A stretch of DNA of 64,000 nucleotides from Virgisporangium aliadipatigenens. Its GTDB lineage: Bacteria; Actinomycetota; Actinomycetes; Mycobacteriales; Micromonosporaceae. This document shows, one piece after another, positions 113 through 22,847 of the stretch (position 1 is the first letter of the stretch; every line of letters begins with the position of its first letter). The position numbers were made by a program, and so were the translations under genes. The stretch covers positions 1-64,000 of the forward strand of contig NZ_BOPF01000009.1 in assembly GCF_016863615.1 (NCBI RefSeq), given 5' to 3'. The notes below the pieces were generated by a model. It worked only from the letters and a program-made list of their open reading frames with translations. It was not told the DNA's origin and searched no databases.

Positions 113-211
113 ATGACCGACGAGGAACTGGCGGGCGTCCGGCCGGAACACATCAGCGTCCTCAGCCTCAAGTACGTCGAGGACGACCTCGAACCGCCCC
201 GCCCGGCCTGA
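113..211 (+). CDS. Tiny acidic peptide (32 aa) upstream of the GTPase
   Basis: ATG at 113 follows an AGGGAG ribosome binding site (102-107). The product is 32 aa, rich in Asp and Glu in its first half and after the centre, with a Pro/Arg tail. It lies 31 bases before the GTPase start on the same strand and is probably cotranscribed with it. Another frame running in from the window edge ends at 116 and overlaps this start as ATGA, so an upstream gene tail is possible. I recognise no family. The ribosome binding site and spacing are the only support; expression is inferred. Confidence 0.4.
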   Translation: MTDEELAGVRPEHISVLSLKYVEDDLEPPRPA

Positions 212-242
212 CCGGGACGGCACACCACGATTGGGAAAGGTC

Positions 243-1166
243 ATGGCAGGACTGAGCGACAGCGACAAGGAACGGCTACGCCAGGAGTGGGAACGCGAAC
301 TGACCCGCAAGCCGCCGACCATCGGCGTCGTCGGCGTCTCCGGTGTGGGAAAGAGTTCGACCATCAACACGATGTTCCGGACCGATCTGCCGATCAGCCA
401 CACCGTCGCCTGCACGAAGGCGGTCACCGACGTGCCGCTGCGGGTCAGGGTCACCGGCGGGCCGGGGGCCGGACGGGACGCCCGGCTGGTGGTGCGTGAC
501 GCGCCAGGGCTCGGCGAGGACGTCCGCAGGGATCCCGCCTATCTGCGGATGTACGAGGAGACGTTGCCGGAGTGCGACGTCATCCTGTGGGTCATGACGG
601 CCCGGCAGCGGGCGGTCGCCCTCGACCAGCAGTACCTGCGCCACTTCACCCACCTGCACGACCGGATCGTCTTCGGCCTGAGCCAGGTGGACCTCGTCGA
701 ACCGCGCGACTGGAAGGCCGGTTCCCTCGTGCCCTCCAAGGCCCAGGAACGGCACATCGAGCAGATCCGGGCGGACCGCGCCGAACGGCTCGGGGACGTG
801 CTCGGCCGGCCGGCGAAGGTGATCCCCTACTCGAACCATCAGGGCTTCAACCTCGAATGGCTCTTCGCCGGCGTGCTCGAGGCCTGCACCCCGGGACGGA
901 AGTGGATTTTCGAGGGCCTCCGCAACTTCCGGCTCGAGGACTGGATCCCGGCGACCCCGGCGGCACAGCCCACGCCCACGCCGGCTCCGGCACGGGAACG
1001 GGCTGCGCCCGGCGTCATGCGGCTCGGCGCCGACATCTGGCGGGTCCTCTTCGGCACCCAGGTCCCGACCACGGAGGAACTCGACCGGATGGACCGGATC
1101 GCCCGGAACCTTCGGGCGGAACGCGGCCACGCGGCGATGAAGGAGGTGCGCGATGACCACGTCTGA
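243..1166 (+). CDS. P-loop GTPase of the TRAFAC/Era-like class
   Basis: A 307-aa cytosolic GTPase. Motifs visible: G1 GVSGVGKS at residues 31-38, G3 DAPG at 86-89, a non-canonical G4 SQVD at 147-150 in place of NKxD, and a possible G5 near 197 (YSN). This resembles YfjP/HSR1-like and other stress or immunity GTPases. The substituted G4 could change guanine specificity; that is inference. A proline-rich linker (about 240-255) leads to a charged helical C-terminus. I chose ATG 243 because GGGAAAGG lies just before it; a TTG at 231 is in frame. It overlaps the next gene by 14 bases, so the two are probably translationally coupled and may interact. Confidence 0.85.
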   Translation: MAGLSDSDKERLRQEWERELTRKPPTIGVVGVSGVGKSSTINTMFRTDLPISHTVACTKAVTDVPLRVRVTGGPGAGRDARLVVRDAPGLGEDVRRDPAYLRMYEETLPECDVILWVMTARQRAVALDQQYLRHFTHLHDRIVFGLSQVDLVEPRDWKAGSLVPSKAQERHIEQIRADRAERLGDVLGRPAKVIPYSNHQGFNLEWLFAGVLEACTPGRKWIFEGLRNFRLEDWIPATPAAQPTPTPAPARERAAPGVMRLGADIWRVLFGTQVPTTEELDRMDRIARNLRAERGHAAMKEVRDDHV

Positions 1167-1353
1167 GTTCCTCGACGACGAGGACATCGCCCGGATGGAG
1201 CGCTACGTGCGGGACATGCGCCGCCGCCGCGCGCTCGGCCAGGCGATCTCCCGGGCCGACTTCGCCGCCTGGGCCTCGCACGCCGCGGCGTGGCTGCTCG
1301 ATCGGCTCGAGGACGCCTGGGACTGGGTGCGCCGGGCGCTCGGACTGGTGTGA
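1153..1353 (+). CDS. Small helical protein coupled to the GTPase
   Basis: A 66-aa protein starting inside the GTPase 3' end (AGGAGG at 1140-1145, ATG at 1153). The N-terminal half is acidic then strongly basic (an RRRR run), and the C-terminal half is rich in Trp, Ala and Leu with an amphipathic look, ending WVRRALGLV. It may be a membrane-surface or protein-binding helix. No catalytic motif and no family recognised. The overlap with the GTPase suggests a stoichiometric partner; that is inference. Confidence 0.65.
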   Translation: MTTSEFLDDEDIARMERYVRDMRRRRALGQAISRADFAAWASHAAAWLLDRLEDAWDWVRRALGLV

Positions 1354-1395
1354 ACCCGTCCCGGCGGGCAGACACCGGGCGGCACGCGCGGGAGC

Positions 1396-4300
1396 ATGGG
1401 CACTGTGGGATTGCCCGCCCGACAGCATCGGCCGGACCCGTCGTTCGTCGGGCGGGAGGACGAACTCGCGCACCTGGACCGGCGGCTGACCCAGGCCGCC
1501 GCGGGCGTGCCGTACGCCGTGCTGGTCCGGGGCGAGGCCGGCGTCGGCAAGAGCCGGCTGCTGCGCGAGTTCGCCCAGCGGGCCCGCGCCGCCGATGCCC
1601 TGGTGCTGAGCGGCTCGTGCGTCCCGCTCGGCGCCGGCGAACTGCCCTACGCACCGCTCATCGACGCCCTGCGCCGGCTGGTCCGCGAGGTCGGCGAGCC
1701 CACCCTCCTCCGGCTCGCCGCGCAGCCGTACGCCGACCTCGCCGACCTGATCCGGGACTTCAGCGACACCGTGCCCGAACCGGTCGGCGAGCCGCGTTCG
1801 CAACTGCGCATCTTCGGCGCGGTGCTGCGGCTGCTCGACCGGCTCGGCACGGACCGGCCGGTGCTGCTGACGCTGGAGGACCTCCAGTGGGCCGATCCGT
1901 CCACATTGGACCTGCTGGCCTACGTCATCCCGGCGCAGACCGACGAACGGGTGCTGGTGGTGTGCAGCTACCGCACCGGCGACCTGCCGCCACGGCATCC
2001 GCTGCGGGCGGTGGTCGCCGAACTCGCGCTGGCCCGACGGGTGGACCAGCTCGACCTGGTGCCGTTCACGCGCACCGAACTGCGGGCGTTCCTCGCGACG
2101 TTGACCGGCGCGCCGGTCGCCCCGGAAACGGCCGCCCACGTACACGAACTCTCCGACGGAAACGCCTTCTTCAGCGAGGAGCTGGTCATGGCAGGGGTGA
2201 TCGAACGCGGCGACCCCACGGCGCCGGCCGTCCGGCTGCCCGGCTCGCTGCGCGACCTCGTCCTGACCCGGTTCGAACTGCTCGGCGACGACGCCCGCGA
2301 GGTGCTGCGCATCGCCGCCGTCGCCGGCCGGCGGGTGGGCCATCGCCTCCTCGCGGGGGTGTGCGACCTGCCGGCCCGCCGGATGACGGCGGCCCTGCGC
2401 GAGTGCGTGGCACAGCACATGCTGCTGACCGATCCCGACGACGACGGCTACCTGTTCCGGCACGCGCTCGTCCGCGAGGCGGTGTACCAGGATCTGCTCC
2501 CCGGCGAGCGGGTGGAGCTGCACGCCGCGGTGGCCGCCGTCCTCACCGCCGACCGGCGCCTCGGCCGCACCGAGGACCTCACCTTCGGCGCCCAGCTCTC
2601 CTACCACTGGTACGAGGCGGGTGCGTATGCGGAGGCGCTCGCGGCCGCGGTCCGGGCCGGCGACACCGCCATCCGGGTGCGCGCCTTCCGCGAGGCCGAG
2701 CTGCAGTACCGGCGGGCGGTCGGACTCTGGTCGCGGGTACCGGATCCGGCCGCCGTCACCGGCACGACCCATGTCCGTCTCCTCGCCCGCGCCGCCGACG
2801 CGTCGCGCTGGTCGGGCCGGACAGAGCAGGCGGTCGAACTGGTCCGCGAGGCGCTGGCGGAGATCGACGCCGCCGACCGGGCCCAGGCGGGCGAACTGTG
2901 CGAGCGGCTGGGCCGCTACCTGTGGGAGGCCGCGGACACGGCCGGTTCGCAGCAGGCGTACGCCGCGGCGCTGCGCTGCCTCGCCGACGAACCGGACTCG
3001 GCGGTCTCCGCCCGCGTGCTGGCCGGCCAGGCGACGGCGGAGGTGCGCGCGGGACGCTACTCGGCGGGGCTGCGCATCGGTGTCCGGGCGGTCGAACTGG
3101 CCCGCCGGGTCGGCGCCAAGGCCGAGGAGGGGCAGGCGCTCAACACCGTCGGGGTGGCGCGCACGATGACCGGCCGGGTCGAGGAGGGCATCGCCGCGCT
3201 GCGCTCCGCGCTGCAGATCGCCGAGGCGACCGACCGGATCGAGGAACTCTTCCGCGGCTACGGCAACCTGATGCTGGCCCTGGAACACGCCGGCCGGTTG
3301 GAGGAGTCGGTGCGGGTGGCTCTCGAGGGGCTGGACCGCGCCCGCCGGCTCGGCCTGCAACACACCCGGGGCGGCGGCGTGCTCGCCAACAACGCCGGCG
3401 CCGTGCTCGCCTCGCTCGGCCGGTGGGACGAGGCGACCGCGCTCCTCGCCGACCTGGTCGAGGAACGGCCGGTGCGGGAGAGCCTGTATCCACGGCTGAC
3501 GTTGGCGGAGATCGAGGTGGGGCGGGGCCGGTTCGCCGACGCCGAACGGCATCTCGCGGCCGTTCGCGAGGAGGGCGACTCGTTGCGGGAGCCGAAGTTC
3601 GTCGCCTCGCGGCACGCGTGCGAGGCCGAGTGCGCCCTCTGGCGGCGGCAGTTCGACGACGTCGGCGCAACGGTCGCCGCCGGTCTGGCCGCGATCGGCG
3701 ACTCCGAGCAGTTCGTCCTGCTGCTGCGGCTGCACGCGCTCGGGCTGCGCGGCGCGGCCGACCGGTGGCTGCGGCTCTCGGCCCTGCACCGCGCCGGTTC
3801 GGAGGAACTGGCCCGGGTGGAGGCGGCTATCGTCGCGCACCGCGGCGCGGTCGACGCGTTGGTCGACTCGCCGGCCTGGTCCCCGCTGCCCGAGGCCCGC
3901 GCATTGCACCTGCTCTGCCTCGCCGAACGGGACCGGATCGCCGACGCGCCGGATCCGGCGAAGTGGGGCGCGGCGGCCGACGCATGGGACGCGTTCGGCC
4001 GGCCCTTTCCCGCCGCGTACGCCCGGTGGCGGCAGGCCGAGGCGGCGGTCGTCCGGCGCGACTCCGCCGTGGCGACCACCGCCGCGCGCAGCGCACACGC
4101 CGCGGCCGAACGCCTCGGCGCCGAGGCGCTGCGGGCGGAGGTCGAGTCGCTGGCCCGGCGGGCCCGCCTGGACCTGCGTGCCGGGGCCGCACCGCCGCCG
4201 CCGCGCAGACGCCCGGCCGACCCGTTCGGGTTGACCGCGCGGGAGCGGGAGGTGCTGCGCCTGATCTGCGACGGCAGCACCAACCGCCGGATCGCCCGGA

Positions 4301-4455
4301 CGCTGTTCATCGCGGAGAAGACCGCCGGCGTCCACGTGTCGAACATCCTGATGAAGCTGGGCGTGACGAGTCGCGGCGAGGCGGCCGCCGCGGCCCACCG
4401 GCTCGGCATTTTCGATCCCGATGACTCCGGCCCGAACGAGGGACCGGCACCGTGA
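1396..4455 (+). CDS. LAL-type STAND ATPase, LuxR-family regulator
   Basis: A 1019-aa signal-transducing ATPase with a DNA-binding C-terminus. An N-terminal FVGRE motif (about 17-21) opens the AAA/STAND domain, with Walker A GEAGVGKS at 46-53 and Walker B LTLEDLQWAD near 158-167. A winged-helix/lid region and then a long TPR-like helical array (about 400-930) follow. The GerE/LuxR HTH starts at LTAREREVLR near residue 946. The length is typical of LAL regulators. ATG 1396 follows GGGAG closely. It lies 42 bases after the small helical gene on the same strand and is the obvious candidate regulator of the protease genes downstream. The inducer is unknown. Confidence 0.9.
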   Translation: MGTVGLPARQHRPDPSFVGREDELAHLDRRLTQAAAGVPYAVLVRGEAGVGKSRLLREFAQRARAADALVLSGSCVPLGAGELPYAPLIDALRRLVREVGEPTLLRLAAQPYADLADLIRDFSDTVPEPVGEPRSQLRIFGAVLRLLDRLGTDRPVLLTLEDLQWADPSTLDLLAYVIPAQTDERVLVVCSYRTGDLPPRHPLRAVVAELALARRVDQLDLVPFTRTELRAFLATLTGAPVAPETAAHVHELSDGNAFFSEELVMAGVIERGDPTAPAVRLPGSLRDLVLTRFELLGDDAREVLRIAAVAGRRVGHRLLAGVCDLPARRMTAALRECVAQHMLLTDPDDDGYLFRHALVREAVYQDLLPGERVELHAAVAAVLTADRRLGRTEDLTFGAQLSYHWYEAGAYAEALAAAVRAGDTAIRVRAFREAELQYRRAVGLWSRVPDPAAVTGTTHVRLLARAADASRWSGRTEQAVELVREALAEIDAADRAQAGELCERLGRYLWEAADTAGSQQAYAAALRCLADEPDSAVSARVLAGQATAEVRAGRYSAGLRIGVRAVELARRVGAKAEEGQALNTVGVARTMTGRVEEGIAALRSALQIAEATDRIEELFRGYGNLMLALEHAGRLEESVRVALEGLDRARRLGLQHTRGGGVLANNAGAVLASLGRWDEATALLADLVEERPVRESLYPRLTLAEIEVGRGRFADAERHLAAVREEGDSLREPKFVASRHACEAECALWRRQFDDVGATVAAGLAAIGDSEQFVLLLRLHALGLRGAADRWLRLSALHRAGSEELARVEAAIVAHRGAVDALVDSPAWSPLPEARALHLLCLAERDRIADAPDPAKWGAAADAWDAFGRPFPAAYARWRQAEAAVVRRDSAVATTAARSAHAAAERLGAEALRAEVESLARRARLDLRAGAAPPPPRRRPADPFGLTAREREVLRLICDGSTNRRIARTLFIAEKTAGVHVSNILMKLGVTSRGEAAAAAHRLGIFDPDDSGPNEGPAP

Positions 4456-4479
4456 ATCCATTCTACGAAAGGCGAGAAA

Positions 4480-4743
4480 ATGACATCGGCGGAGAAGACT
4501 CCGGCGCCGCGAGGGATCCGGCTGCACGTGGGACGCTTCGACTACGCACTCGACCTGGGTGCGGAAAAAGATTCGGTAACCCTGCTCGCGGAGATCGAAA
4601 CCGCGGTCAGCTCCGGGGCGTTCGTGTCGGTTCCGGTTCTCGACGACCACGGTTGCCGGCTGACGCTTTACCTGAACGGCGCGCTGATCGATTCGTACGC
4701 GGTCGACAAAGGCCTCGGGCCTCGGCCGACCGAGTTCTCGTAG
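4480..4743 (+). CDS. Hypothetical protein, 87 aa
   Basis: The ORF starts at ATG 4480 behind GAAAGGCGAG (4467-4476). The product looks like a small single-domain alpha/beta protein: an N-terminal strand (IRLHVGRFDYALDLG), an acidic helix, then strands around VSVPVLDDHGCRLTLYLNG. There is no signal peptide or membrane segment. It lies 24 bases after the LAL regulator and is followed by a strong two-way terminator, so it is likely the last gene of the GTPase-LAL transcript. I do not recognise the family. An adaptor role in the same system is only suggested by position. Confidence 0.65.
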   Translation: MTSAEKTPAPRGIRLHVGRFDYALDLGAEKDSVTLLAEIETAVSSGAFVSVPVLDDHGCRLTLYLNGALIDSYAVDKGLGPRPTEFS

Positions 4744-4752
4744 GAATGGCGG

Positions 4753-4783
4753 GCGGATGCTCCGGTGACCCCGGGGCATCCGC
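4753..4783. terminator. Bidirectional hairpin between convergent genes
   Basis: GCGGATGC (4753-4760) pairs perfectly with GCATCCGC (4776-4783). The stem continues through a T-G wobble and CCGG/CCGG to a 5-base loop at 4766-4770, 13 pairs in all. It sits in the 43 bases between the stop of the 87-aa gene and the stop of the opposing LuxR gene, so it can serve both transcripts. There is no T-run, as is usual in actinomycetes. Confidence 0.7.
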
Positions 4784-4786
4784 GCC

Positions 4787-5239
4787 TCACATCATGCCCA
4801 GGCGCTGCGCGAGAAGCACGGTACCGAGCCGGTCGGCGGTCCCCATCTTGCGGTACAGCTTCTCCTGGTGCTTGGTCACCGTGCGCCGGGAGACGCCCAG
4901 CCGGTGCGCGATCGCCGCGGCGGTGAGCCCCTCGCCGAGCAGTCCGAGCACCTCCCGCTCCCGGGGCGTGAGCCGGGGCGCGACGGGCGCGTCCGTGCCG
5001 GGAGCCGGCCCGGCCGAGGGTGCGGGAGACGCGCCGGCCCAGACCCAGCGGCCCGCGCGGCGGGACAGCACCCCGAATTCGACACCGACCACGACGAGGG
5101 CGCGCACCACGGCGAGATCCCCGCGCGCCATCGTCCACAGCAGACGGAGGGTCTCCGGTTCGACCGGCCCACCGAGCAGTTCGACCAATTGACGATCGAC
5201 GGCCGCATCATACGGCTCGACGACGTTCACGGCTGTCAC
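4787..5239 (-). CDS. LuxR-type regulator resembling a truncated LAL (lid plus HTH)
   Basis: A 150-aa protein from GTG 5239, chosen because GGAGG lies 4 bases before it; an in-frame ATG at 5326 has no such site. The C-terminal half is a GerE/LuxR HTH (LTPREREVLGLLGEG..., recognition helix near SRRTVTKHQ). The N-terminal ~75 residues (LVELLGGPVEPETLRLLW...GRWVWAG) look like the helical lid/winged-helix piece that follows the ATPase core in LAL regulators, but there is no Walker motif. Neither a receiver domain nor an autoinducer-binding domain is present. It is transcribed divergently from the caspase gene and is well placed to control it; direct regulation is inferred. Confidence 0.8.
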   Translation of the reverse strand: MTAVNVVEPYDAAVDRQLVELLGGPVEPETLRLLWTMARGDLAVVRALVVVGVEFGVLSRRAGRWVWAGASPAPSAGPAPGTDAPVAPRLTPREREVLGLLGEGLTAAAIAHRLGVSRRTVTKHQEKLYRKMGTADRLGTVLLAQRLGMM

Positions 5240-5352
5240 GAATCCTCCATTTGAGTTCGCGATGAAAAGACGACACAACGCGGCGATCGCTGCGACCAGC
5301 ATCGCTTTCGAATGACCCGCGAACATGGGGAGAACTGCGCACGATCGACGCG

Positions 5353-5381
5353 GTGACCACCCTAGAAATCGCGCCTACGAT
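5353..5381 (+). promoter_or_regulatory. Possible promoter of the caspase-CHAT genes
   Basis: GTGACC (5353-5358), a 17-base spacer and TACGAT (5376-5381) resemble a housekeeping actinobacterial promoter. It sits about 40 bases before the caspase start. The flanking CCTAG (5361-5365) and CTAGG (5384-5388) form a short interrupted inverted repeat around the -10, a possible operator. Confidence 0.3.
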
Positions 5382-5422
5382 CCCTAGGCAGAAACGGATC
5401 GCATTCCTCCCGGAGGCACACC

Positions 5423-7975
5423 ATGGCACGACGGGCACTTCTCATCGGATCGGCGACCGGCGGACTCACCGGTGTCGCACGCGACATCGAATCCATGGGC
5501 GAACTGCTCGACGGCCGGGGATTCGAGATCCGCGAACTGACCGGCGCGAACGCCACGCGGGCGGGAATCCTCGACGGTTACGAGAAATTGATCGCCGACT
5601 GCGCTTCGCCCGACACCGCGTTCGTCTACTACAGCGGCCACGGCGGGATCGTGCGGCCGCTGGCGACCGACGCCGCGACGCCGGCCGGCGACATCCCGCG
5701 CGACCTGCAGTTCATCGTGCCGACCGACATCGAGGCGTCCACCCCGGCGGACTTTCTCGGAATCCTCGACACCGAGCTGGCGGTCCTGCTCGCCAGGCTG
5801 CTCGAGCGCACCGAGAACGCCGTCGTCATGCTCGACTGCTGCCACGCCGCGCACATGGCCCGCGATCCGCAGCTGCGGCCGCGCGCCCTGCCGCGACTGT
5901 CCTATCTGGACCTCGCCGACAACCTCGAACGCCGCCGGAAGGCGGGACTCCAGGTGGACCTGCTGCCGGCGCTCGGCAACCGGGGCGTGCGACTGGTCGC
6001 ATGCGCACCCGAGCAGTCCGCGTACGAGTACCCGAACCGGGACGGCGTCACCGCCGGCATCTTCACCGAGGCGTTCCGGGCGGCGCTGAGCGAGGCCGGC
6101 ACGGCGCCGGTCACCTGGTCGACGCTGATGCGCCGGATCCGGGACCGCACCCTGACCCTCGCCCCCGAGCAGCGGCCGGAGGTCGAGGGGAACTCCGCGC
6201 GCCTGCTCTTCGAAGTGGAGACCGCGGAGCGGACGGACGCCGTTCCGATCGCCTGGGTCGCCGGCACCCGGGCGTCGATCCCGGGCGCGGCACTGCTGGG
6301 CATCGGGGCCGGCGACCGGTTCGCCGTCATGCCCGCCGGCGCGGTGCGCGTCGACGACGCGACGACGATCGCGGTCGCGACCGTGGCGGCGGCCCGGGGT
6401 GCCGCGGCCGAGGCGATTCTGGAGTTCCGGCCGGGGCACGCCGCGGTGCCGATCGGCGCGCAGGCCCATCCGCTCAGCGCCGCCGCCCGCCGCCGTCCGG
6501 TCGCGAGCGGCGGGACGGGCCCGTTCGCCGAGCGGCTGCGGGCGGCTCTCGCGGCGGCGCCGACGCTGCGGCCGGCGGGCCCGGACGACGGCGTCCTGCT
6601 GGCCGATGTCGAGTTCACCGGCGACGCGGCGGTCATCCGGGACGCCGCCGGCCCGCTGACCCGACCGGTGCCGGCCGACGACGCGGGCATCGGGCAGCTG
6701 GTGACCATGCTCGGCCGGCTGGCCCGCTCGGCCACGCTGCGGGAGCTGGCGCCCGCCCCGGACGAGGTGCTGGACGAGGAGTTCGGCGTCGAGTGGGGAC
6801 GCGTGGTGGACGGCGCGGCGGTGCCGATGACGCCGTCGGGTGCCCTGGTGCACGCGGGCGACGCGGTGTATGTGCGACTGCGCAACGACAGCGACCGCCG
6901 GCTGTACTTCTTCGTGTTCGATCTGGGGGTGTCGGGCGTGATCGACCTGCTCACCCAGGACGATCCGTCCGGGCTGCGGATCGATCCGGGCCGCGAGTAC
7001 GTGCTCGGCGCCCGCGACGGGGTGCTCGAGGGCAGCGCGGTGAGCTGGCCGGCGGCCGTTCCGGCCGGTGCGGCCCGACCGGAGGCGCTGCTGGTCCTGG
7101 TCACCGCCGCCCGTCAGGAGCTGGCCGTGCTGCAGCAGGAGGGGATCACCGACGCCGGGTCCGCGAAGCGGTTCGAGGAGATCAGGCGGGACGGTTCCGC
7201 GCTCGAACGGGCGCTCGCCGACATCGTGCTCGGCGGCGAACGCGAGGTGGCCCGTGCCCGCGGACGGCCGGTCGTCCGCTACGCGGCGCAGCGGGTGGAG
7301 TTCCTGCTGAGCCCGTTGCCGCGGCCCACTCCGGAGGTCGCGACGTTCCTGGTCGACGAGCGGCCCGAGCGGTCGATACGGCTGCTGGGCGCCCGGGACG
7401 CCGCACCGGCCACCCCGGTGGCGATCCGCCTGCGCGAACTGGTCGTGCACCGCAACCGCGCGTGGGGCGGCAGCGACATCCGGGTCGACGCCCTGATCGT
7501 CACCGGCGGCGGCGACGGCGACGTCCCGGTGTACCGGGCGGGAACGGCGCGGTTCGGCAACGTACGCGACGGCGACCGGCTGCCGCTGGACAACCTGCTC
7601 GTCTACCACGGCCCCGCGGTCGGATACCTCGATCTCGCCTGGTGGGTGTCGCGGGACCGCACCGCGAGCCGCGCGCTCGGCGACCTGCTGGCCGAACGGC
7701 TCAACGCCGCGGAGTTCACGGCCGCCGCCGCGCAACTGGCCGGGCTGGCGGTCGCCGCGCCGCAGGCCGCCGCTGCCGTCGCGGCGGTGGGAGCGGCGGC
7801 GATCGTGGTCAACACCGCGTACCGGCTGCTGTCCGAGGCCGTCGGCGACAGCATCGGGATCTACCGCACGTCGTTCCTGGCCGGCGAGGACTTCGGGATC
7901 GGCCGGCATCCGCGCGACGGGCTGCTGCGCGCGCAGGACTTCTCCTACTCGTACGAGATCGTCGGGGTGGGCTGA
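5423..7975 (+). CDS. Caspase-family (peptidase C14) protein with C-terminal DUF4384-like region
   Basis: An 850-aa cytosolic protease. The caspase fold occupies roughly residues 1-270. Catalytic His73 lies in YYSGHGG and catalytic Cys140 in LDCCHAAH, both intact. The middle region is uncharacterised. Around residues 465-570 (AVYVRLRNDSDRRLYFFVFDLG...) it resembles DUF4384-type beta domains found behind bacterial caspases. An alanine-rich helical stretch follows near 770-800. GGAGG at 5412-5416 supports ATG 5423. The CHAT gene begins 3 bases after the stop, so the two proteases are almost certainly coexpressed. The substrate is unknown; families of this type act in conflict and programmed-death systems. 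Confidence 0.9.
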   Translation: MARRALLIGSATGGLTGVARDIESMGELLDGRGFEIRELTGANATRAGILDGYEKLIADCASPDTAFVYYSGHGGIVRPLATDAATPAGDIPRDLQFIVPTDIEASTPADFLGILDTELAVLLARLLERTENAVVMLDCCHAAHMARDPQLRPRALPRLSYLDLADNLERRRKAGLQVDLLPALGNRGVRLVACAPEQSAYEYPNRDGVTAGIFTEAFRAALSEAGTAPVTWSTLMRRIRDRTLTLAPEQRPEVEGNSARLLFEVETAERTDAVPIAWVAGTRASIPGAALLGIGAGDRFAVMPAGAVRVDDATTIAVATVAAARGAAAEAILEFRPGHAAVPIGAQAHPLSAAARRRPVASGGTGPFAERLRAALAAAPTLRPAGPDDGVLLADVEFTGDAAVIRDAAGPLTRPVPADDAGIGQLVTMLGRLARSATLRELAPAPDEVLDEEFGVEWGRVVDGAAVPMTPSGALVHAGDAVYVRLRNDSDRRLYFFVFDLGVSGVIDLLTQDDPSGLRIDPGREYVLGARDGVLEGSAVSWPAAVPAGAARPEALLVLVTAARQELAVLQQEGITDAGSAKRFEEIRRDGSALERALADIVLGGEREVARARGRPVVRYAAQRVEFLLSPLPRPTPEVATFLVDERPERSIRLLGARDAAPATPVAIRLRELVVHRNRAWGGSDIRVDALIVTGGGDGDVPVYRAGTARFGNVRDGDRLPLDNLLVYHGPAVGYLDLAWWVSRDRTASRALGDLLAERLNAAEFTAAAAQLAGLAVAAPQAAAAVAAVGAAAIVVNTAYRLLSEAVGDSIGIYRTSFLAGEDFGIGRHPRDGLLRAQDFSYSYEIVGVG

Positions 7976-7978
7976 GCG

Positions 7979-10900
7979 ATGGGTGGCACCGCGGTCGAAC
8001 TCCTTCCCGGCGGGCTGCTCGACCGGCTCGTCGCCACGGCCGGCCCCGACGGGCTCTCGCCGGTGCGCGCCGCGGCCGCTGCGGGTGCGTTCGTGCGGGC
8101 GCACGAGGAGGTGACGGCGTTGCGGGCCGGCGATCCCGTGTCGCTGCTCGCCTGGGAGCACTACACGTGGCACTCGCGCTGGCTCGGGCTGCCCGACGGC
8201 GACGCCCGGCCGATGGGCCACCTGCTGCTGCGGATGTTCGAACGGCCGCCCCGGCCGCGTCGCGAACGGGTCACCCGCGCGGAGGACTGGATCGTCGGCC
8301 GGCTGCTCACCGACCTTCGGGACACCCGCGCCACGCTCTCGCCGCAGCTGCTGTCCGCCTCCCCCGCCGGCACCGCCGCGTCGAACCTCGGTCTCGGGAT
8401 CGCGTCGATCGACGAGGCGCGCGAACGCCTCGCGGACCGGCCCGACCTGCTGGGACACCTGGACCTGCTCGCCGCCGACCTGGCCGCCCGCGCCGACGAG
8501 CGCACCCTGGCCGAGGAGTACCTCACCGCGGCGCAGCGGCGGCTGACCGATGCCGGCGACCGGTCCGGCCTGGCCGCCGCGGCGCTGCTGCTCGGCGACC
8601 TGCGCGCCGCGCCGCTGATGTCGCCCCTGGGCTGGAACTGCGTGCTGTCCGTGGAGCCTTCCTCGCCCGACTGCGCGCTGGCCGAGACGGTCGAGGCGGC
8701 CGAGTTCGACGGGTCCACTGTGGACAGTTCCGGGGCGTTGGCCGCCTACGCGACGGCGGCGCAGTGCTACGAGGCGACCGGCGGCGTGGCCGGCCTGGCG
8801 GCGGTGGCGCTGCGGCACTGCTATCTGGCGTTGCTCGACGGCGACCCGGCCGGCGCGATCGCTTTGGCCGAACGGGCCGGGGCGGCGTTCGCGGAGGAGG
8901 GCCGGCCGTTGGACGCGGCGGTGGCCGCCTGCCACGGCGCGCTGGCCGCGATCGCCGACGACCGGCTCGCGGTGGACGCGCAGGGCGCGGATCGGATCGT
9001 GGCGGCCGGCCGGGCGACGATCGGCGACGCGCCCACCGTCGGACTGGGGCTGTTGTGCACCAGGATGGCGCGCTACTGGGCCTCCCGCGGCCGCCGACCC
9101 GAACGGGCCCGCGCCGCGCTGGGCCTCGCGGAGCGGATCTTCGCCGGGATCGCCGAACCCGTGCTGCGCAGCCAGACCGTGGCGGAGATCGCCCAGGTGG
9201 CGGCCTCCGTCGGGGACGTGGCGGCGGTGCGGATCGCGGTGCGCGACGCGCTGGCCGCCGACGCGGCGCCGCTGGTCGAACCGGCCGACCCGACCGACGA
9301 CCGGCGCATCCGTCGCGCCCTGCTCGCGGGCCGCCTGTACACCCTGGCGAGCGGGGTGCGCGACGTCGACGGGATGCGGCTGGCGAGCCGTGACCTGGAG
9401 GACGCCCTGGGCCCGTTGCGCACCGGCCTGGCCGGCTACACCGGCCGCGCCCTCGTGATCGCGAACCACCTGCTGACGATCGCTACCCCGCCCGGGCATC
9501 GCATCGTGGACCTGCTCTACCGGGCCCGCGAGGCGCGCGACGCCGGCGCGTCCGACGTCGACGGGAGCCTCGTCGCGCAGGCCCGCGCCGATCTGGAACT
9601 GATCCCGTCCGGCGAGCGCGACCTCGCCGAGGCGTTGCTGCTGGCGCACGTCGGCGATCGCGCGGGTGCGTCGGAGGCGTTCGCCCGCCACACGCAGCGG
9701 GAACTGGCGCCGCTCCCCGCCGGCGGGCAGGAGTGGCGCATGGCGCACGTGGCGGGGTTGGCGTTCCAGCTCACCGTCGGCCACACCGCACGCGCCGCCG
9801 CCCATCACGCGGCGCTCGTCGCGGCGCGGACGCCCTGGTGGGCCGGGCTCGGACCGGACTGGCAGCACCTGAGCACGGAGGGTCGGCTGCGCGAACAGCA
9901 ACACGAGGAGGCGGCGGCGCTCGAGGCGTTCGACCGCGCTCTCGAGGAGATCGAGGGGGTCCGGGCCGGCCTCAATCGCGACGACCTGAAGACGTGGTTC
10001 TTCTCGGGCGCGGAGGTGCAGAACACCTATCTGGACGCGATCCGCGTCGCGCTGCGGCTCGGCGAGCACGGCCGCGCCTTCGGGTACGCCGAACGGGCCC
10101 GGGCCCGCGCGCTGCTCGACCTGCTGTCCGCGAACGCCGGGGTCGACCACGCCGGGCTCCCGGAGGAACTGGTCCGGCGCTGGCGATGGGCCGGCGCCGA
10201 CGTGACGCTCGCGCGCGGTCGCCTGGCGCGGGCGCTGCAGCGGCCGGAGCCCGACGGCGCGGAGATCGCCGAACTGCGCGCCCGGCTCGACCGGGCCGAC
10301 GAGCGGCTGCGCGCCGTCGAGGCGGAACTCCAGGCCGGCAACAGCAGGTTCTGGCGCACGGTCAACCCGCAGGCGGAGACGCGGAACCTGGCCGACGTGG
10401 CGGCCGCGCTGCCGCCCGGGGTGGCCGTCCTGCAGTACGCCGTCGGGCGCTACGACCTGCTCTCCTGGGCGGTGACCCGGGACGGGATGGTCGCCGCGCA
10501 CCGGGCGGAGGGCGAACACGGCATCCAGGGGCTGGTCGCCGGGATGCTCGACGCGTGCGCCACCGGTGACGAGTACGCCGCACCGGCCGAACGCCTCGCG
10601 GATCTCCTGCTGGAGCCGCTGCGCCCGGTCGTCGAGGCGGCCACCGCGCTGCTGCTGGTGCCCTCCGGGCCGTTGGCCCGGCTGCCGTTCGCGGCCCTGC
10701 CCTGGAACGGCTCCACCCTCGGCGCGGCGGTGCCGCTCACGGTGCTGCCGAGCGCGAGCGCATCGGCGACGGCGCGGCCCGCCGGACCCGCCGGTGGGCG
10801 CTCGCTGGTGGTGGGCGACCCGTCCGGGATGGCCTACGTCCCGGAGGGCTCGGCGGTCCCGATCCCGCAGCCCGCGCTGCCGGCCGCCGGCGTCGAGGCG

Positions 10901-11551
10901 TGGCGGGTCGCCGGCCTGCTGGGCGGCGCGGTGGACCTGCTGCTCGGCGACGACGCGACCGAGGCGCGGGTGCGCGCGCTCCTGCCCGACGCGGCCGTCG
11001 TGCATCTCGCCACGCACGGGGTCCTCGACCCGAACGCGCCCCTGGCGACCGCCGTCCTGCTGGCCTCCGGGGAGTCGTTGACGGCCGCGGAACTGTTCGG
11101 GCAGCGGCTGAACGCCGATCTCGTGGTGCTGAGCGCCTGCCGCACCGGCACCGGCACCGTGGTGCGCGGCGACGAACTGCTCGGCCTCGGCCGCGCGGTG
11201 CTGGCCGCCGGTGCCCGTTCCGTGGTGGTGACGCTCTGGTCGATCAGCGACCTGTCCGCGACGCTGTTCATGAGCGAGTTCCACCGGCGGCGGCTCGCCG
11301 GGGAGTCCGACGCGCGGGCACTGCGTGCGGCGGGAGGCTACCTGCGGGCGCTCTCCCGGGAGGAGGCCGTGGCCGCGTTCGAGGGGCTGCGCGCCGGTGC
11401 CGAACGCAGCGGTGACGGCGACCTCGTGGCGCGGCTGGACCGGGCCCGGGAGATCGGCGGGTGGTCGCGTACGTCCGCGCCGTTCGCCCACCCGTACCAC
11501 TGGGCGCCGTACGTGCTCGTCTCGGCCGGTGTCGGGGCGGCGCCCGGATGA
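7979..11551 (+). CDS. CHAT-domain protease with long helical-repeat N-terminus
   Basis: A 1190-aa protein. Residues 1 to ~850 are alpha-helical with TPR-like spacing (alternating A/L-rich helices), ending in a coiled-coil-like charged stretch near 720-790. The C-terminal CHAT domain (about 880-1190) carries the separase/caspase-type dyad His1013 (VVHLATHG) and Cys1054 (VVLSACRTGTG), followed by the usual GLGRAVLAAGARSVVVTLW. TPR-CHAT proteins are proteases switched on by a partner binding their repeats. Position straight after the caspase gene suggests a two-protease cascade; which acts first cannot be told. It contains one copy of the GTCCACTGTGGAC palindrome. Confidence 0.9.
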   Translation: MGGTAVELLPGGLLDRLVATAGPDGLSPVRAAAAAGAFVRAHEEVTALRAGDPVSLLAWEHYTWHSRWLGLPDGDARPMGHLLLRMFERPPRPRRERVTRAEDWIVGRLLTDLRDTRATLSPQLLSASPAGTAASNLGLGIASIDEARERLADRPDLLGHLDLLAADLAARADERTLAEEYLTAAQRRLTDAGDRSGLAAAALLLGDLRAAPLMSPLGWNCVLSVEPSSPDCALAETVEAAEFDGSTVDSSGALAAYATAAQCYEATGGVAGLAAVALRHCYLALLDGDPAGAIALAERAGAAFAEEGRPLDAAVAACHGALAAIADDRLAVDAQGADRIVAAGRATIGDAPTVGLGLLCTRMARYWASRGRRPERARAALGLAERIFAGIAEPVLRSQTVAEIAQVAASVGDVAAVRIAVRDALAADAAPLVEPADPTDDRRIRRALLAGRLYTLASGVRDVDGMRLASRDLEDALGPLRTGLAGYTGRALVIANHLLTIATPPGHRIVDLLYRAREARDAGASDVDGSLVAQARADLELIPSGERDLAEALLLAHVGDRAGASEAFARHTQRELAPLPAGGQEWRMAHVAGLAFQLTVGHTARAAAHHAALVAARTPWWAGLGPDWQHLSTEGRLREQQHEEAAALEAFDRALEEIEGVRAGLNRDDLKTWFFSGAEVQNTYLDAIRVALRLGEHGRAFGYAERARARALLDLLSANAGVDHAGLPEELVRRWRWAGADVTLARGRLARALQRPEPDGAEIAELRARLDRADERLRAVEAELQAGNSRFWRTVNPQAETRNLADVAAALPPGVAVLQYAVGRYDLLSWAVTRDGMVAAHRAEGEHGIQGLVAGMLDACATGDEYAAPAERLADLLLEPLRPVVEAATALLLVPSGPLARLPFAALPWNGSTLGAAVPLTVLPSASASATARPAGPAGGRSLVVGDPSGMAYVPEGSAVPIPQPALPAAGVEAWRVAGLLGGAVDLLLGDDATEARVRALLPDAAVVHLATHGVLDPNAPLATAVLLASGESLTAAELFGQRLNADLVVLSACRTGTGTVVRGDELLGLGRAVLAAGARSVVVTLWSISDLSATLFMSEFHRRRLAGESDARALRAAGGYLRALSREEAVAAFEGLRAGAERSGDGDLVARLDRAREIGGWSRTSAPFAHPYHWAPYVLVSAGVGAAPG
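8713..8725. repeat. Copy of dispersed palindrome GTCCACTGTGGAC
   Basis: Perfect copy, in frame as Ser-Thr-Val-Asp in the helical region of the CHAT protein. Confidence 0.85.
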
Positions 11552-11630
11552 GCGGACGCCTGCGGAAGCGAATCATGGGGCACTGCGTGCTTGTGTCTCG
11601 TGACGCCGCGGAGCGAAGCGAGGCGGTGTC

Positions 11631-12230
11631 ATGAGCACGCAGTTGCGGCGGGACCTGCACGACGTGCTCGGGCCGGCGTTGGCCGCGCTCGCGTTCCGGC
11701 TGGAGGCGGCGCAGGTCATCGTTCAGCGCGAGCCGCACCGGGCCGCGGAGGTGCTGCTGACGCTGCGGTCCGGCGTCGGGCACGCCGAACGCGCCCTGCG
11801 CGAACTGGTCGACGGGGTGCGACCGTCCACATCGGACAGTGCGCGGGGCTGCCCGGTCGCCCGGATCAGGGCGTTCGTCGACGGGCTCGCGGGCACACCC
11901 GGGCCGGCGATCACCGTGCACGCGCCCCCGGGACCGGCGGTGCCACCGACGGTCGGCGACGCCCTGTACCTCATCGTCACCGAGGCGTTGACGAACGTCC
12001 TGCGACACGCCGGCGCCGGCCGCTGCGCGGTGCGCATCACCCGCGGGGAGGCGCTGGAGGTGGAGGTGCGCGACGACGGCGTGGGCATGCCGGACGGGGT
12101 TCCCCGGCCCGGTGTGGGCCTGCGGTCGATGGCCGCTCGCGCGCGGGCGCTCGGTGGCACCTGCCGGGTCGAATCGGTGGCCGGCGTGGGCACCCGCGTA
12201 CGGGTGCGGCTCCCGCTGCCGGCCCGATGA
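11631..12230 (+). CDS. Minimal sensorless histidine kinase (NarL/HisKA_3 type)
   Basis: Only 199 aa: a HisKA_3 dimerisation helix begins at once (RRDLHDVLGPAL, phosphoacceptor His10) and is followed by an HATPase domain with N-box EALTNVLRHA, G1 DDGVGMPD and G2 GVGLRSM. No membrane segment or sensory domain is present, far short of the usual 380+ aa. ATG 11631 has GAGGCG upstream; no longer in-frame N-terminus with homology is evident. The response regulator gene overlaps its stop (ATGA). The kinase presumably senses through a partner protein, perhaps a product of the protease genes 80 bases upstream; that is inference. Confidence 0.85.
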   Translation: MSTQLRRDLHDVLGPALAALAFRLEAAQVIVQREPHRAAEVLLTLRSGVGHAERALRELVDGVRPSTSDSARGCPVARIRAFVDGLAGTPGPAITVHAPPGPAVPPTVGDALYLIVTEALTNVLRHAGAGRCAVRITRGEALEVEVRDDGVGMPDGVPRPGVGLRSMAARARALGGTCRVESVAGVGTRVRVRLPLPAR

Positions 12231-12886
12231 CGGACGACCCGATCCGGGTGCTGGTCGTCGACGACCACCCGGTCTTCCGGGACGGACTGTGCGCGCTGTT
12301 GGAGGCGTTCGAGGATCTGACGGTGGTGGGGCGCAGCGGTTGCGGTGCGGCGGCCGCGGAACTGGCGCACGCGCTGCGGCCGGACGTCGCCGTCCTCGAT
12401 CTCGGCCTGCCCGACGTGAGCGGATGCGAGGCGGCACAACGCATCCGCGCCCGCGCTCCGCGCGTCGGCCTGATCGCGTTGACCCTGGCCGACGACGACG
12501 CGTCGGTCTTCGCCGCGCTGCGCGCGGGGATGCGCGGGTACCTGCTCAAGGACGCCGACGCGGGTCGGGTCGCGCAGGCGGTCCGCACCGTGGCGAGCGG
12601 CGCCGCGTTCTTCGGCCCGGCGGTCGCCGAACGGCTGTCGGGGTTCTTCGCGGCGGCGCCCGGCGCGGCGGCGTTCCCCGAACTGACCGCCGGCGAACGG
12701 GCGGTGCTCGACCTGATGGCCGCCGGCCTGAGCAATCCGGAGATCGCCCGGCGCCTGATCGTCAGCCCGAAGACGGTCCGCAATCGGATCTCCTGCATCT
12801 TCGCCAAGCTCCGGGTGCCCGACCGGGCCCACGCGATCGTCCGCGCCCGGGAGGCCGGCATGGGCCGGCTCCGTTCGGCTCGGTGA
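12227..12886 (+). CDS. NarL-family response regulator
   Basis: A 219-aa two-component regulator, coupled to the kinase by an ATGA overlap. The receiver domain shows the acidic pair VVDDHP (about 10-15), phosphoacceptor Asp in AVLDLGLPD near residue 58, and the conserved Lys in LLKDA near 108. The C-terminal GerE HTH starts at LTAGERAVLDLMAAG. Likely targets are the protease genes or the secreted-protein gene just downstream; none is shown directly. Confidence 0.92.
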   Translation: MTDDPIRVLVVDDHPVFRDGLCALLEAFEDLTVVGRSGCGAAAAELAHALRPDVAVLDLGLPDVSGCEAAQRIRARAPRVGLIALTLADDDASVFAALRAGMRGYLLKDADAGRVAQAVRTVASGAAFFGPAVAERLSGFFAAAPGAAAFPELTAGERAVLDLMAAGLSNPEIARRLIVSPKTVRNRISCIFAKLRVPDRAHAIVRAREAGMGRLRSAR

Positions 12887-13015
12887 CGCGCCGGTGAACC
12901 CGGCGGGGACGTCCCGCGTTTCGGGGACACCGCTCCCCTGACGGCGGGACCGGTCCCCGTGAACGGTGTTCCCGTGCACCGCCACCCCGGCGGGCCACGT
13001 CCCTTGGGGGAACAC

Positions 13016-13567
13016 ATGCGCAGAATCATCACCGGATGTCTCACCGTCCTCACCACCCTGGCCGTCGTGGCGCTCACCGCGGCGCCGGCCGGGGCGGAAC
13101 CGTCCGGCTCGCAGGCGTCCGCACCGGCCGGCGCCGAACGGGCGACCGTCGAACAGATGCCCCGGCCGGAGACCGCACCGCAGGTGACCGTGCGGACGAG
13201 CGCGTACTTCGCCGACTGCCCGCAGTCCGCCGGGTACTGCACCTACGACAGCGGCTGGGAGTACTACGACGGGAGCTGCCAGGCACGCACCCAACTGGCC
13301 TGGTGGCGCGGCTCCAACACGGTCTCGATCCAGGTCCACGTGTACAGCCCGTTCCTCTTCGCGGCCTGCCGGGTGTACTCGACGCCGCAGTTCGCCACGA
13401 CGTTCAACTTCACGGTGAGCGGTGGGTCGTTCTACGCGATGGCCTGCTCGGCGACGGACCCGACCTGCTCGAACTACCAGATCTGGAGCTACTTCGACAA
13501 CTCCGGCCTGCACCCGTTCTTCGTCCCCTACGTGTACGCGATCTCGGCGGCACACACCAAGGCCTGA
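13016..13567 (+). CDS. Secreted protein with six cysteines, unknown function
   Basis: A 183-aa precursor. The start at 13016 is supported by GGGGG at 13006-13010; a GTG at 12959 is in frame but would delay the signal sequence. The signal peptide (basic MRR, hydrophobic core to about residue 24, cleavage near APAGA-EP) marks it for Sec export. The mature part is aromatic, with six Cys (DCP, YCT, SCQ, ACR, ACS, TCS) that could form three disulfides, and a beta-rich look. No catalytic motif recognised. It has its own strong terminator and lies 129 bases after the response regulator. It could be an output of that system or an independent gene. Confidence 0.8.
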   Translation: MRRIITGCLTVLTTLAVVALTAAPAGAEPSGSQASAPAGAERATVEQMPRPETAPQVTVRTSAYFADCPQSAGYCTYDSGWEYYDGSCQARTQLAWWRGSNTVSIQVHVYSPFLFAACRVYSTPQFATTFNFTVSGGSFYAMACSATDPTCSNYQIWSYFDNSGLHPFFVPYVYAISAAHTKA

Positions 13568-13574
13568 CCCGAAC

Positions 13575-13600
13575 GGCGCACCGGCCACCGCCGGTGCGCC
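13575..13600 (+). terminator. Strong hairpin after the secreted-protein gene
   Basis: GGCGCACCGG (13575-13584) pairs perfectly with CCGGTGCGCC (13591-13600) across a 6-base loop, 8 bases after the stop codon. It separates this gene from the fructose operon. Confidence 0.75.
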
Positions 13601-13627
13601 GGCATCGGACGAAACACGCGCGACATC

Positions 13628-13657
13628 TTGACGTGACGCGGGCCACGCGCCCAATAT
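13628..13657 (+). promoter_or_regulatory. Promoter of the frc-like operon
   Basis: TTGACG (13628-13633), an 18-base spacer and CAATAT (13652-13657). The palindromic operator lies 11 bases further on, about where transcription should start, which suits repression. Confidence 0.5.
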
Positions 13658-13668
13658 CCATAGAAGCA

Positions 13669-13682
13669 TGTCAACGTTGACA
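13669..13682. promoter_or_regulatory. LacI-type operator TGTCAACGTTGACA
   Basis: A perfect 14-bp palindrome with the central CG and AACGTT core usual for LacI-family operators. A further half site, CGTTGA, follows at 13685-13690. It lies between the promoter and the transporter genes, whose operon includes a LacI gene (16560-17588), so autoregulation by that protein is the simplest reading. Confidence 0.75.
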
Positions 13683-13716
13683 CACGTTGATCTCTGCTCC
13701 AGGGAGGTGTGCGACC

Positions 13717-14709
13717 GTGGCCGACCGCAGGACGACGACCCTGTTCCTGACCATCGTGCTCGGCTCCGCGTTAGGGGCGGCCGCCTGCGGCGACTCCGAC
13801 GGCGGGAGCGACAAGGTCAAGATCGGACTGATCACCAAGACCGACACCAACCCCTTCTTCGTGAAGATGAAGGAGGGCGCGCAGAAGGCCGCCGACGCGG
13901 CGGGCGTCGAGCTGATGACCGCCGCCGGCAAGAACGACGGGGACAACGCCAGTCAGGTGACCGCCGTGGAGAACATGGTGGCCGCCGGCGTGAAGGGCAT
14001 CATGATCACGCCCAGCGACACCAAGGCGATCGTGCCGACCATCCAGAAGGCGCGCGCGAAGGGCGTTCTGGTCATCGCGCTGGACACGCCGACCGAGCCG
14101 CAGGACGCCACCGACGCCCTCTTCGCCACCGACAATCTCAAGGCCGGTGTCCTCATCGGACAGTACGCCAAGGGCGCGATGGCCGGCCGGACGCCGAAGA
14201 TCGCCACACTGGACCTGGCGCCCGGCATCACCGTGGGAGTGTTGCGGCACAACGGTTTCCTGCAGGGCATGGGCCTCAAGGACGGCGACCCGTCGATCGT
14301 GTGTTCCCAGGACACCCTGGGCGATCAGGCCAAGGGCCAGACCGCGATGGAGAACTGCCTCACCAAGGCGCCCGACATCAACCTCGTCTACACCATCAAC
14401 GAACCCTCGGCGTTCGGCGCGTACACGGCGCTCAAGGCGAAGGGCCGGGAGAAGGACGTCATGATCGTCTCCGTGGACGGCGGCTGTGCCGGGGTCCGCG
14501 GCGTCCAAAGTGGACAGATCGCGGCCACCTCCCAGCAGTACCCGCTCAAGATGGCCGAACAGGGCGTGCAGGCCGTGGTGAAGTTCGCCAAGGACGGGAC
14601 GAAGGCGACCGGCTACACCGACACCGGGGTCACGCTCGTGACGGACAAACCGATGCCGGGCCAGGACACCAAGGACACCGCGTTCGGCCTCGCCAACTGC
14701 TGGGGCTGA
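13717..14709 (+). CDS. frcB: Fructose-type sugar ABC transporter, substrate-binding lipoprotein
   Basis: A 330-aa ribose/fructose-class (CUT2) periplasmic-binding-fold protein. GTG 13717 sits 9 bases after GGGAGG (13702-13707). A short hydrophobic signal ends in a lipobox-like LGAAAC with Cys24. Mature motifs such as GLITKTDTNPFFVKMKEGA and GIMITPSDTKAIVPTIQKA match the FrcB-like subgroup. It should capture an extracellular sugar and deliver it to the permease encoded 7 bases downstream. Fructose is favoured because the operon is followed by a GH32 fructanase; specificity is not proven by the sequence. Confidence 0.85.
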   Translation: MADRRTTTLFLTIVLGSALGAAACGDSDGGSDKVKIGLITKTDTNPFFVKMKEGAQKAADAAGVELMTAAGKNDGDNASQVTAVENMVAAGVKGIMITPSDTKAIVPTIQKARAKGVLVIALDTPTEPQDATDALFATDNLKAGVLIGQYAKGAMAGRTPKIATLDLAPGITVGVLRHNGFLQGMGLKDGDPSIVCSQDTLGDQAKGQTAMENCLTKAPDINLVYTINEPSAFGAYTALKAKGREKDVMIVSVDGGCAGVRGVQSGQIAATSQQYPLKMAEQGVQAVVKFAKDGTKATGYTDTGVTLVTDKPMPGQDTKDTAFGLANCWG

Positions 14710-14716
14710 GCGGCGG

Positions 14717-22038: not shown

Positions 22039-22754
22039 GTGCGACCACCGCTGCCACGGACGTCATTCGACGTTCTCAGCCTCGGTAAGGTGCGCAACCC
22101 CCTGACCGCCGTCGCGGCCGCGATCGTCGCCGGCGGGCTCGTCCTGCAACTGCTGTTCGTCCCCCTGCTGCTGCTCGTGCGCGGCGCCTGGTGGGGACTG
22201 GTGTTGGTGCCCGTCGCGGCGACGACGATGCCGCTGTGGTCCCTGGTGCACGAGGCGATCCACGGCACACTCTCCGCCGATCGTCGGTGGAACGACCGCT
22301 GCGGCCGCGCGCTCGCCGTCGGTTACGGCGCGCCGTTCGTGTTGCTCAAGGGTGGGCATCTGCTGCACCACCGCTACAGCCGCACCCGTAAGGAGCGCAC
22401 CGAGGTCTTCGACCCCACGCGCACCACGAGAACACGCGCGGCACCGCTGTACTACGTGAGACTCCTCGGCGGGCTGTACCTGTCGGAAGCGGCGTCCGTT
22501 CTGCTGGCCGTGCTGCCGCGGCGCGCGTGGTACCGCCTCGCCGCGCGGTGGGACAGCCCGGACACCGTCACCCGTGAGCTCCTGGAACGGGTGGCCGCGC
22601 GCCAGCTCCGCCGGGGCTGCGCTGGCACGAACTGCGGGCCGCGTTCGACGCCGACGGCGACCGGTTCCATCTCGGCTGGGTCGAGGCGGTGGCGCGGCAG
22701 TTCCGCGGGCCGATCCCGGAGACCGATCCGGCGATCCGTGCGCCTGACGGGTGA
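22039..22754 (+). pseudogene. Fatty acid desaturase, internally deleted and frameshifted
   Basis: The first ~170 codons (GTG 22039, or GTG 22090) encode a membrane desaturase N-terminus with histidine boxes HEAIHG and HLLHH. At about 22605-22618 the coding signal moves to another frame, which reads LRWHELRAAFDADGDRFHLGW and ends at 22754, resembling the family's normal C-terminus. The region between, which should hold further membrane helices and the third histidine box, is missing. So this is an out-of-frame internal deletion. If read straight through, the first frame continues into the next gene. A sequencing artefact would not explain the missing segment. Confidence 0.75.
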
Positions 22755-22847
22755 ACGACACGCCTTTTGTGCACGGGGACACCTACGGCGACGTCGGGCG
22801 GTGCAGAATCGGCCGCGTCGCCGTTCCCCCACGATCGGAGCACCCCC

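Follow-up and report, generated by a model that had tools for sequence, protein, structure and literature searches.

The window analysed in this study comprises the first 64 kb of contig C9 from the 10.3-Mb genome of Virgisporangium aliadipatigenens, base 1 of the contig being the start of the window. Between positions 243 and 12886 it carries nine genes, which encode a GTPase, a small protein B, a large ATP-binding LuxR (LAL) regulator of the STAND type, a small partner D, a LuxR-type protein, a caspase, a CHAT protease, a histidine kinase and a response regulator. A preliminary description of this DNA had read them as one 13-kb system. Comparison with related loci shows that the conserved unit is smaller and consists of the LAL regulator, D, the caspase and the CHAT protease, here together with the divergent LuxR gene. 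Each kind of protein, as well as caspase-based conflict systems, is known already; no description of this gene set was found in the literature searched, in which subscription papers were thinly covered.

The features of the locus are (coordinates of the window):

243..1166 (start 231 or 243), plus strand: GTPase; Pfam MMR_HSR1 2.8e-9, Dynamin_N 8e-8; outside the conserved unit
1153..1353, plus strand: small protein B, 66 aa, overlapping the end of the GTPase gene; outside the conserved unit
1396..4455, plus strand: LAL-type STAND regulator, 1019 aa; Pfam AAA_16 3.6e-31, LuxR-type helix-turn-helix (HTH) 1.2e-17
4480..4743, plus strand: small partner D, 87 aa; defined by the alignment of its family
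4723..4740, plus strand: conserved C-terminal tail of D, RPTEFS
4787..5326, minus strand: LuxR-type HTH protein (Pfam), divergent from the caspase and CHAT genes
5423..7975, plus strand: caspase, 850 aa; Pfam Peptidase_C14 (PF00656) 3e-14
5639..5641, plus strand: codon of caspase His73 (SGHG)
5837..5842, plus strand: codons of caspase Cys139/Cys140 (DCCH)
7400..7972, plus strand: caspase C-terminal domain (CTD), delimited by its alignment, with a hydrophobic stretch at residues 777-796
7979..11551, plus strand: CHAT protease, 1190 aa; Pfam PF12770 2e-58, CHAT domain at residues 868-1181
11015..11017, plus strand: codon of CHAT His1013
11138..11140, plus strand: codon of CHAT Cys1054
11631..12230, plus strand: soluble histidine kinase, 199 aa (NCBIfam), no hydrophobic segment; local, outside the conserved unit
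12227..12886, plus strand: response regulator, NarL/MadR-type matches (NCBIfam); local, outside the conserved unit

All genes named in the preliminary description are present, as confirmed by open reading frames and by Pfam and NCBIfam. The gene set had been placed from position 113 onwards; the GTPase gene is real and starts at 231 or 243, the frame from 113 ending at 211. The Pfam scan covered the GTPase, B, LAL, LuxR, caspase, CHAT and regulator products, the kinase was scanned by NCBIfam and PADLOC only, and ten products at 231-13567 entered the NCBIfam scan. GTPase and B overlap, 42 bases separate B from LAL and 79 bases CHAT from the kinase, and the gap of 3 bases reported earlier between caspase and CHAT is confirmed by the coordinates. 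As the LuxR gene lies on the minus strand, the 13 kb cannot form one transcript; its orientation and the 96 bases separating the LuxR and caspase starts imply at least two, LAL-D and caspase-CHAT(-kinase-regulator). Since the window begins at contig base 1, genes upstream of the GTPase lie outside view. Downstream of the response regulator a secreted protein and then a sugar transporter were read from the sequence. The frames at 13036-13680 and 13668-14747 are shadow frames and not genes.

Genes travelling with the caspase

A caspase search of 150 genomes of the family gave matches in 27 of them, 15 of which, including the window's own, were full-length. A LAL homologue and D adjoin the caspase gene in 13 of the 14 full-length family relatives. 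In the fourteenth, Virgisporangium ochraceum (L069), the contig ends inside the LAL gene, and the rest of LAL, D, LuxR and a gene termed c0 are found on contig end L138. A scan of named genomes yielded 80 loci, of which the 43 matching beyond the protease domain were analysed, with L101-L137, where the match is confined to that domain, left out. These 43 loci overlap the 150-genome set, so that the two sets are not independent. The gene finder had the window as its training sequence and is less reliable on DNA that is not actinobacterial, and L066, L069, L070, L080, L081 and others have short flanks. LAL was counted when located within two genes of the caspase and CHAT when located within the fetched stretch of 22.5 kb; in the resulting table the window itself appears as lacking LAL, since its LAL and caspase genes are separated by two others.

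Counted in this way, a LAL homologue accompanies the caspase in 20 of the 43 relatives. D is present at all 20 LAL-type loci and at none of the other 23, where L091 is counted as D-bearing through a caspase-D fusion and L069 falls among the 23 only because its contig ends inside LAL. The c0 gene occurs at 19 of the 20 LAL-type loci and at one of the others (20/43 overall), and LuxR relatives lie near the caspase at four of the 43; a LuxR copy on the same strand adjoins D in contig L138, from genome G024 of the same genus. A hidden Markov model (HMM) of CHAT matched at 34/43 loci, and the 33 products sent to Pfam all matched PF12770 at E 0.001 or better, a 209-aa CHAT fragment of L084 being left out of this set and of the CHAT alignment. 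The CHAT gene directly adjoins the caspase on the same strand at 14/43 loci, and in the genome behind L066 it is found 13 kb away. Across 16 family genomes (~143 Mb) 144 CHAT matches were counted, 5 to 14 per genome. This density predicts 0.02 per 22.5-kb stretch or about one locus of 43, compared with 33 observed, a comparison which is a guide and not a test, as a single family supplied the density and the loci have common ancestry.

The linkage of LAL, D, caspase and CHAT, which recurs in soil actinobacteria, is far above chance, and the caspase-CHAT pair of the preliminary description is retained. The recurring companions are D, LuxR in some relatives and the sigma-like c0 in most LAL-bearing relatives. 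That the STAND regulator and two small proteins are partners of the proteases holds for LAL and D and fails for B, which has no homologue at any of the 43 loci.

The locus of Paractinoplanes deccanensis (L058) reads LAL, D, caspase, CHAT and LuxR (minus strand), and its D and caspase genes share 4 bases; neither the GTPase nor the two-component pair was found there. A caspase tree joins the window, L058 and L071 from Lentzea californiensis with a support of 100/97. The window's CHAT shares 57% identity with that of L058 and 52% with that of L071, the other 31 alignment rows reaching 19-33%. L. californiensis contains a second, c0-type locus (L076) about 43 kb from L071 on the same contig; the CHAT of L076 shares 21% identity with the window's. 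Within a single genome, then, the CHAT type goes with the caspase type, a pattern that species history by itself leaves unexplained.

The outer genes of the locus behave differently. The synteny comparison proposed earlier, of GTPase, LAL, caspase, CHAT and kinase, returned LAL, D, caspase and CHAT as recurrent, with GTPase homologues at 0/43 loci and homologues of the kinase and the response regulator at a single locus (1/43), where they lie upstream of the caspase gene and on the opposite strand. The GTPase was matched in 9 of the 150 family genomes, including its own, and a B homologue near the GTPase was seen in one other genome (L049/L139). The closest GTPase relative, in genome G113, shares 74% identity over 131 residues, has a B homologue nearby and lies 3.5 Mb from the G113 caspase locus. 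Genes at unrelated places had been named at the outset as speaking against the larger unit, and for GTPase and B this is what was found. GTPase and B look like a separate pair that is upstream here by happenstance, and this pair as well as the two-component pair look like local additions. Among the loci inspected, the full 13-kb gene set occurs in this genome only, and the all-in-one system was rejected on the co-occurrence counts and the distant pair in G113.

A repeated helix shared by the GTPase tail and B was considered and is not significant, 32 of 1000 shuffles scoring as high. A possible counterpoint to a separate GTPase pair comes from Nonomuraea (L149:1391-5093, minus strand), where two GTPase-like P-loop proteins, identified by eye, lie divergent from a LAL-like/caspase/CHAT/CHAT locus.

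The proteases and their companions

The caspase consists of a metacaspase-like N-terminal protease, a beta-rich middle and the CTD. It belongs to Peptidase C14 by its PF00656 match and its His-Cys dyad, and the match begins at residue 3, leaving no room for a domain in front. Its model superimposes on metacaspase 9 with a VIA Z of 18.9 and a root-mean-square deviation of 3.3 over 229 aligned residues. The mean predicted local distance difference test score (pLDDT) of the model is 69.5 with weak stretches in the CTD, for which no fold is claimed for this reason. The window and its 43 relatives all have His73 and Cys140 (44/44), and Cys139 is kept in 41 of the 44 and is Ser or Ala in three. These replacements make Cys140 the likely nucleophile and thereby the likely catalytic cysteine; the metacaspase pattern is D-x-C-H.

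The CHAT protease matches PF12770 with 198.5 bits, compared with a cut-off of 24, and a long N-terminal region precedes the domain. His1013 and Cys1054 are invariant in all 34 alignment rows, that is, in the window and the best CHAT of 33 relatives, so that the intact His/Cys dyads reported earlier for both proteases are also conserved ones. Seven loci (L059, L061, L062, L063, L065, L072, L088) carry two back-to-back CHAT genes after the caspase, and the second CHAT of these loci has neither dyad residue at the aligned columns. As no TPR match was returned by Pfam for the window CHAT, the label 'TPR-CHAT' is not supported for this protein.

Proteins of the D family are alpha/beta-looking, about 70-94 aa long and devoid of a hydrophobic segment. 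Each of ten genomes chosen for their caspase contains exactly one D gene, nine at the caspase locus and the tenth, in V. ochraceum, on the matching contig end. A D search of 296 genomes across the phylum gave three matches, namely the window's own, one in G003 (at a caspase locus) and a weak one (2.8e-5). The tail follows the pattern [RK]P[PST]{1,2}[EQ][IMFT]S in 21/21 D proteins and in 0/622 other called proteins, with 0.2 expected from shuffles; this pattern was drawn up with the tails already known, and the narrower RP[ST]E[IMF]S fits 14/21. One further D (L138) ends in RPHEFG and fits neither. At L091:10001-12718 (plus strand) caspase and D share one frame that ends with three copies of RPTEISG. 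That so short a tail is repeated suggests that it is bound or cut. Against Pfam, D gave sub-cutoff matches to DUF3107 only (6/14 members, best 0.0029), and against PDB a single match with an E of 0.94.

LAL regulators have an N-terminal ATPase and a C-terminal LuxR HTH and measure about 900-1000 aa. The window's regulator falls within this definition, having AAA_16 at residues 17-189, GerE at 946-998 of 1019 and a middle with sub-cutoff TPR likeness. The c0 family of the relatives (L031-L045, L058-L097) comprises proteins of ~330 aa, and several loci have two copies around the LAL-caspase pair. The c0 model (pLDDT 72.7) was matched mostly by sigma factors, with Foldseek E values of 0.12 and up and VIA Z of at most 5.9, values that make the term 'sigma-like' suggestive only. 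Pfam gave single-member matches of 0.0097 or worse for c0, and PDB sequences nothing better than E 0.17. No c0 was found in the window's genome, and it is hence no part of this locus. Small genes termed c6/c7 (L031-L042), helical-looking and of ~50-87 aa, were observed at module borders, at some loci at both ends; the two scanned had no Pfam match over the cut-off.

The caspase C-terminal domain and known systems

Of the 32 relatives that exceed 750 aa, 26 have a hydrophobic stretch close to the end of the CTD (mean above 1.6 over 19 residues); L071 lacks it. The domain is rare, being found in 18 of the 150 family genomes. Outside the caspase it occurs at four places in these genomes:

L140: stand-alone, 239 aa, in a gene that overlaps a CHAT gene at the latter's end
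L141 (5006-7264): stand-alone, a gene on its own beside an apparent radical-SAM peptide cluster (by eye)
L142: fused, the N-terminal half of a 419-aa protein that is cyclase-like (by eye)
L143: a match on the strand opposite to a CHAT gene, ~180 bases away from that gene's start, with no gene called there

A plasmid of Nostoc sp. ATCC 53789 (L148:1486-8181, plus strand) contains a stand-alone CTD gene (HMM E 1.4e-61) directly before genes annotated as EAD1, EAD1, MoxR, VWA and EAD1. According to Kaur et al. 2020 (PMC7159879), EAD1, MoxR and VWA genes form predicted conflict systems. The sharing of the CTD links the caspase module to these published predicted systems. In 17 further genomes from other phyla the CTD was found in two, both metagenome-assembled genomes of Myxococcota. 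In the first, a CHAT-like gene comes after a caspase-CTD gene (L156), and CHAT precedes the caspase at a second locus (L100); the two caspase loci of the second (L096, L158) show no CHAT.

Pfam holds an EACC1 model, and no EACC1 family appeared among the Pfam matches of the D alignment members. Neither D nor B has a hydrophobic segment, and the caspase reaches 33 bits against NF047832 (EACC1-associated caspase), which has a cut-off of 140, so that membership in the EACC1 system is not indicated. With the EACC1-caspase system, which is associated with a multicellular habit in PMC7159879, the window's unit shares an actinobacterial two-gene core, a caspase whose C-terminus is modular and a small partner that stays constant; it differs by the addition of LAL and CHAT and by a D protein that lacks the transmembrane-like segment defining EACC1 there. 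The MoxR-vWA/EAD1 ternary systems outlined in the same text share the CTD, through the stand-alone copy of the Nostoc plasmid operon, and are set apart by the lack of MoxR, VWA or EAD among the Pfam and NCBIfam hits of the window's unit. The EACC2-caspase system with an extracytoplasmic function (ECF) sigma factor (PMC8195603) combines a caspase and a sigma-factor gene, as c0-bearing relatives may do as well; unlike it, the window's unit includes CHAT and LAL. No EACC2, the domain that precedes the caspase in such systems, was named in the scans, which were run without an EACC2 model. A caspase family called CATRA did not surface in the literature searched.

In the SAVED-CHAT cascade of type III CRISPR systems the order is reportedly from CHAT to caspase. 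The likeness to this system lies in a CHAT protease as part of a proteolytic cascade (PMC11229360), and the difference in the absence of a SAVED match for the window CHAT in the Pfam scan. The type III-E Craspase (Cas7-11/Csx29/Csx30/CASP-sigma) likewise has a CHAT protease next to transcription regulators, and Csx29 joins a pseudo-caspase to an active caspase domain (PMC10028731); in some of the window's relatives an active CHAT stands beside a CHAT gene that lacks the dyad. The window's unit differs from Craspase by a second, true caspase, and no CRISPR gene was noticed, though no CRISPR scan was made.

Elsewhere in the window, the frame at 22090-22851 (plus strand) matches fatty acid desaturases at residues 33-155 only, the rest being odd and perhaps a frameshift or remnant. 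The product of 22848-23960 (plus strand) resembles PNP/UDP-phosphorylases. Its C-terminus gives a RHIM match that falls short of the family cut-off (0.0018), and it contains the motif GVQIGDRNVQWN, reminiscent of bacterial amyloid signalling motifs; it is possibly another cell-death effector.

Possible role of the module

Judged from gene content and conservation, the LAL-D-caspase-CHAT module may well act in conflict or cell death as a switch that is gated by proteases and controlled at transcription, for which we estimate a probability of about 0.55. In such a switch the long N-terminal region of CHAT or the CTD of the caspase would sense the trigger, and one protease would activate the other. 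D could serve via its conserved tail as docking peptide, substrate or brake of the caspase, and LAL and LuxR, in relatives also the sigma-like protein, would set expression or carry the output. A more specific form is proposed tentatively: it would be a CRISPR-independent two-tier (initiator-executioner) CHAT-caspase cascade of Actinomycetota and Myxococcota, in which an RPSEIS-like D tail might be read by one protease, the CTD might be a released effector shared with EAD1/MoxR/VWA systems, and the outputs (LAL, LuxR, sigma-like) might be swappable.

Several observations weigh against the conflict or cell-death switch. LAL and D are missing at 23/43 loci and a Pfam-matched CHAT at 10/43, some of which are cut by contig ends; a locus of Nonomuraea gerenzanensis has a LAL-like gene, the caspase and two CHAT genes but no D; and L140 and L141 carry the CTD without a caspase. 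PADLOC gave no system-level match and likeness only to caspase (generic, 2e-11), CHAT (BovA, 12 bits), GTPase (mad8 and LeoA, 15-17 bits), TPR and HTH. Furthermore, the recurring companions are transcription regulators, which would fit a control of development or stress responses too.

This last point leads to the main rival, a proteolysis-gated transcription switch for development or stress, in which the proteases would process LAL, LuxR or the sigma-like protein and no cell death would occur. Such a role is conceivable, given LAL beside the caspase and c0 at 20/43 loci each and the anti-sigma cleavage by a CHAT protease that is known from Csx29/Csx30 (PMC10028731), yet it appears rather doubtful, as the sparse spread of the full-length caspase (15/150 family genomes including the window's own) is unlike that of a core developmental gene, the CTD is common to an EAD1/MoxR/VWA operon, and 23/43 loci have no LAL beside the caspase.

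The remaining explanations are considerably weaker. That the GTPase, the small proteins, LAL, the caspase, CHAT and the two-component pair act as one unit would agree with their common strand (except LuxR), their short gaps and the P-loop GTPases seen by eye near the Nonomuraea locus, and is nevertheless unlikely in view of the counts of 0/43 and 1/43 and the distant GTPase/B pair in G113. Slightly less probable still is a divergent EACC1-caspase two-gene system with D in place of EACC1: NF047832 is the sole NCBIfam match of the caspase at E 0.05, and a constant small protein beside a caspase with a modular C-terminus fits this idea, whereas the bit score, the Pfam matches of D and the build of D described above do not. 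Chance neighbourhood is hardly credible even with several CHAT genes in each of the 16 genomes searched, since the observed number of loci far exceeds the expected one and the arrangement recurs across families.

Conservation of the dyads, the shortness of the D tail and the existence of a compact version with four genes in Paractinoplanes make the proposed switch directly testable, and a minimal reconstruction should omit the GTPase and the kinase. The shared CTD provides a tie to predicted conflict systems and a handle for finding more of them. If the proposed role is true, two caspase-fold proteases in one heritable unit would constitute a bacterial parallel to initiator-executioner cascades outside CRISPR.

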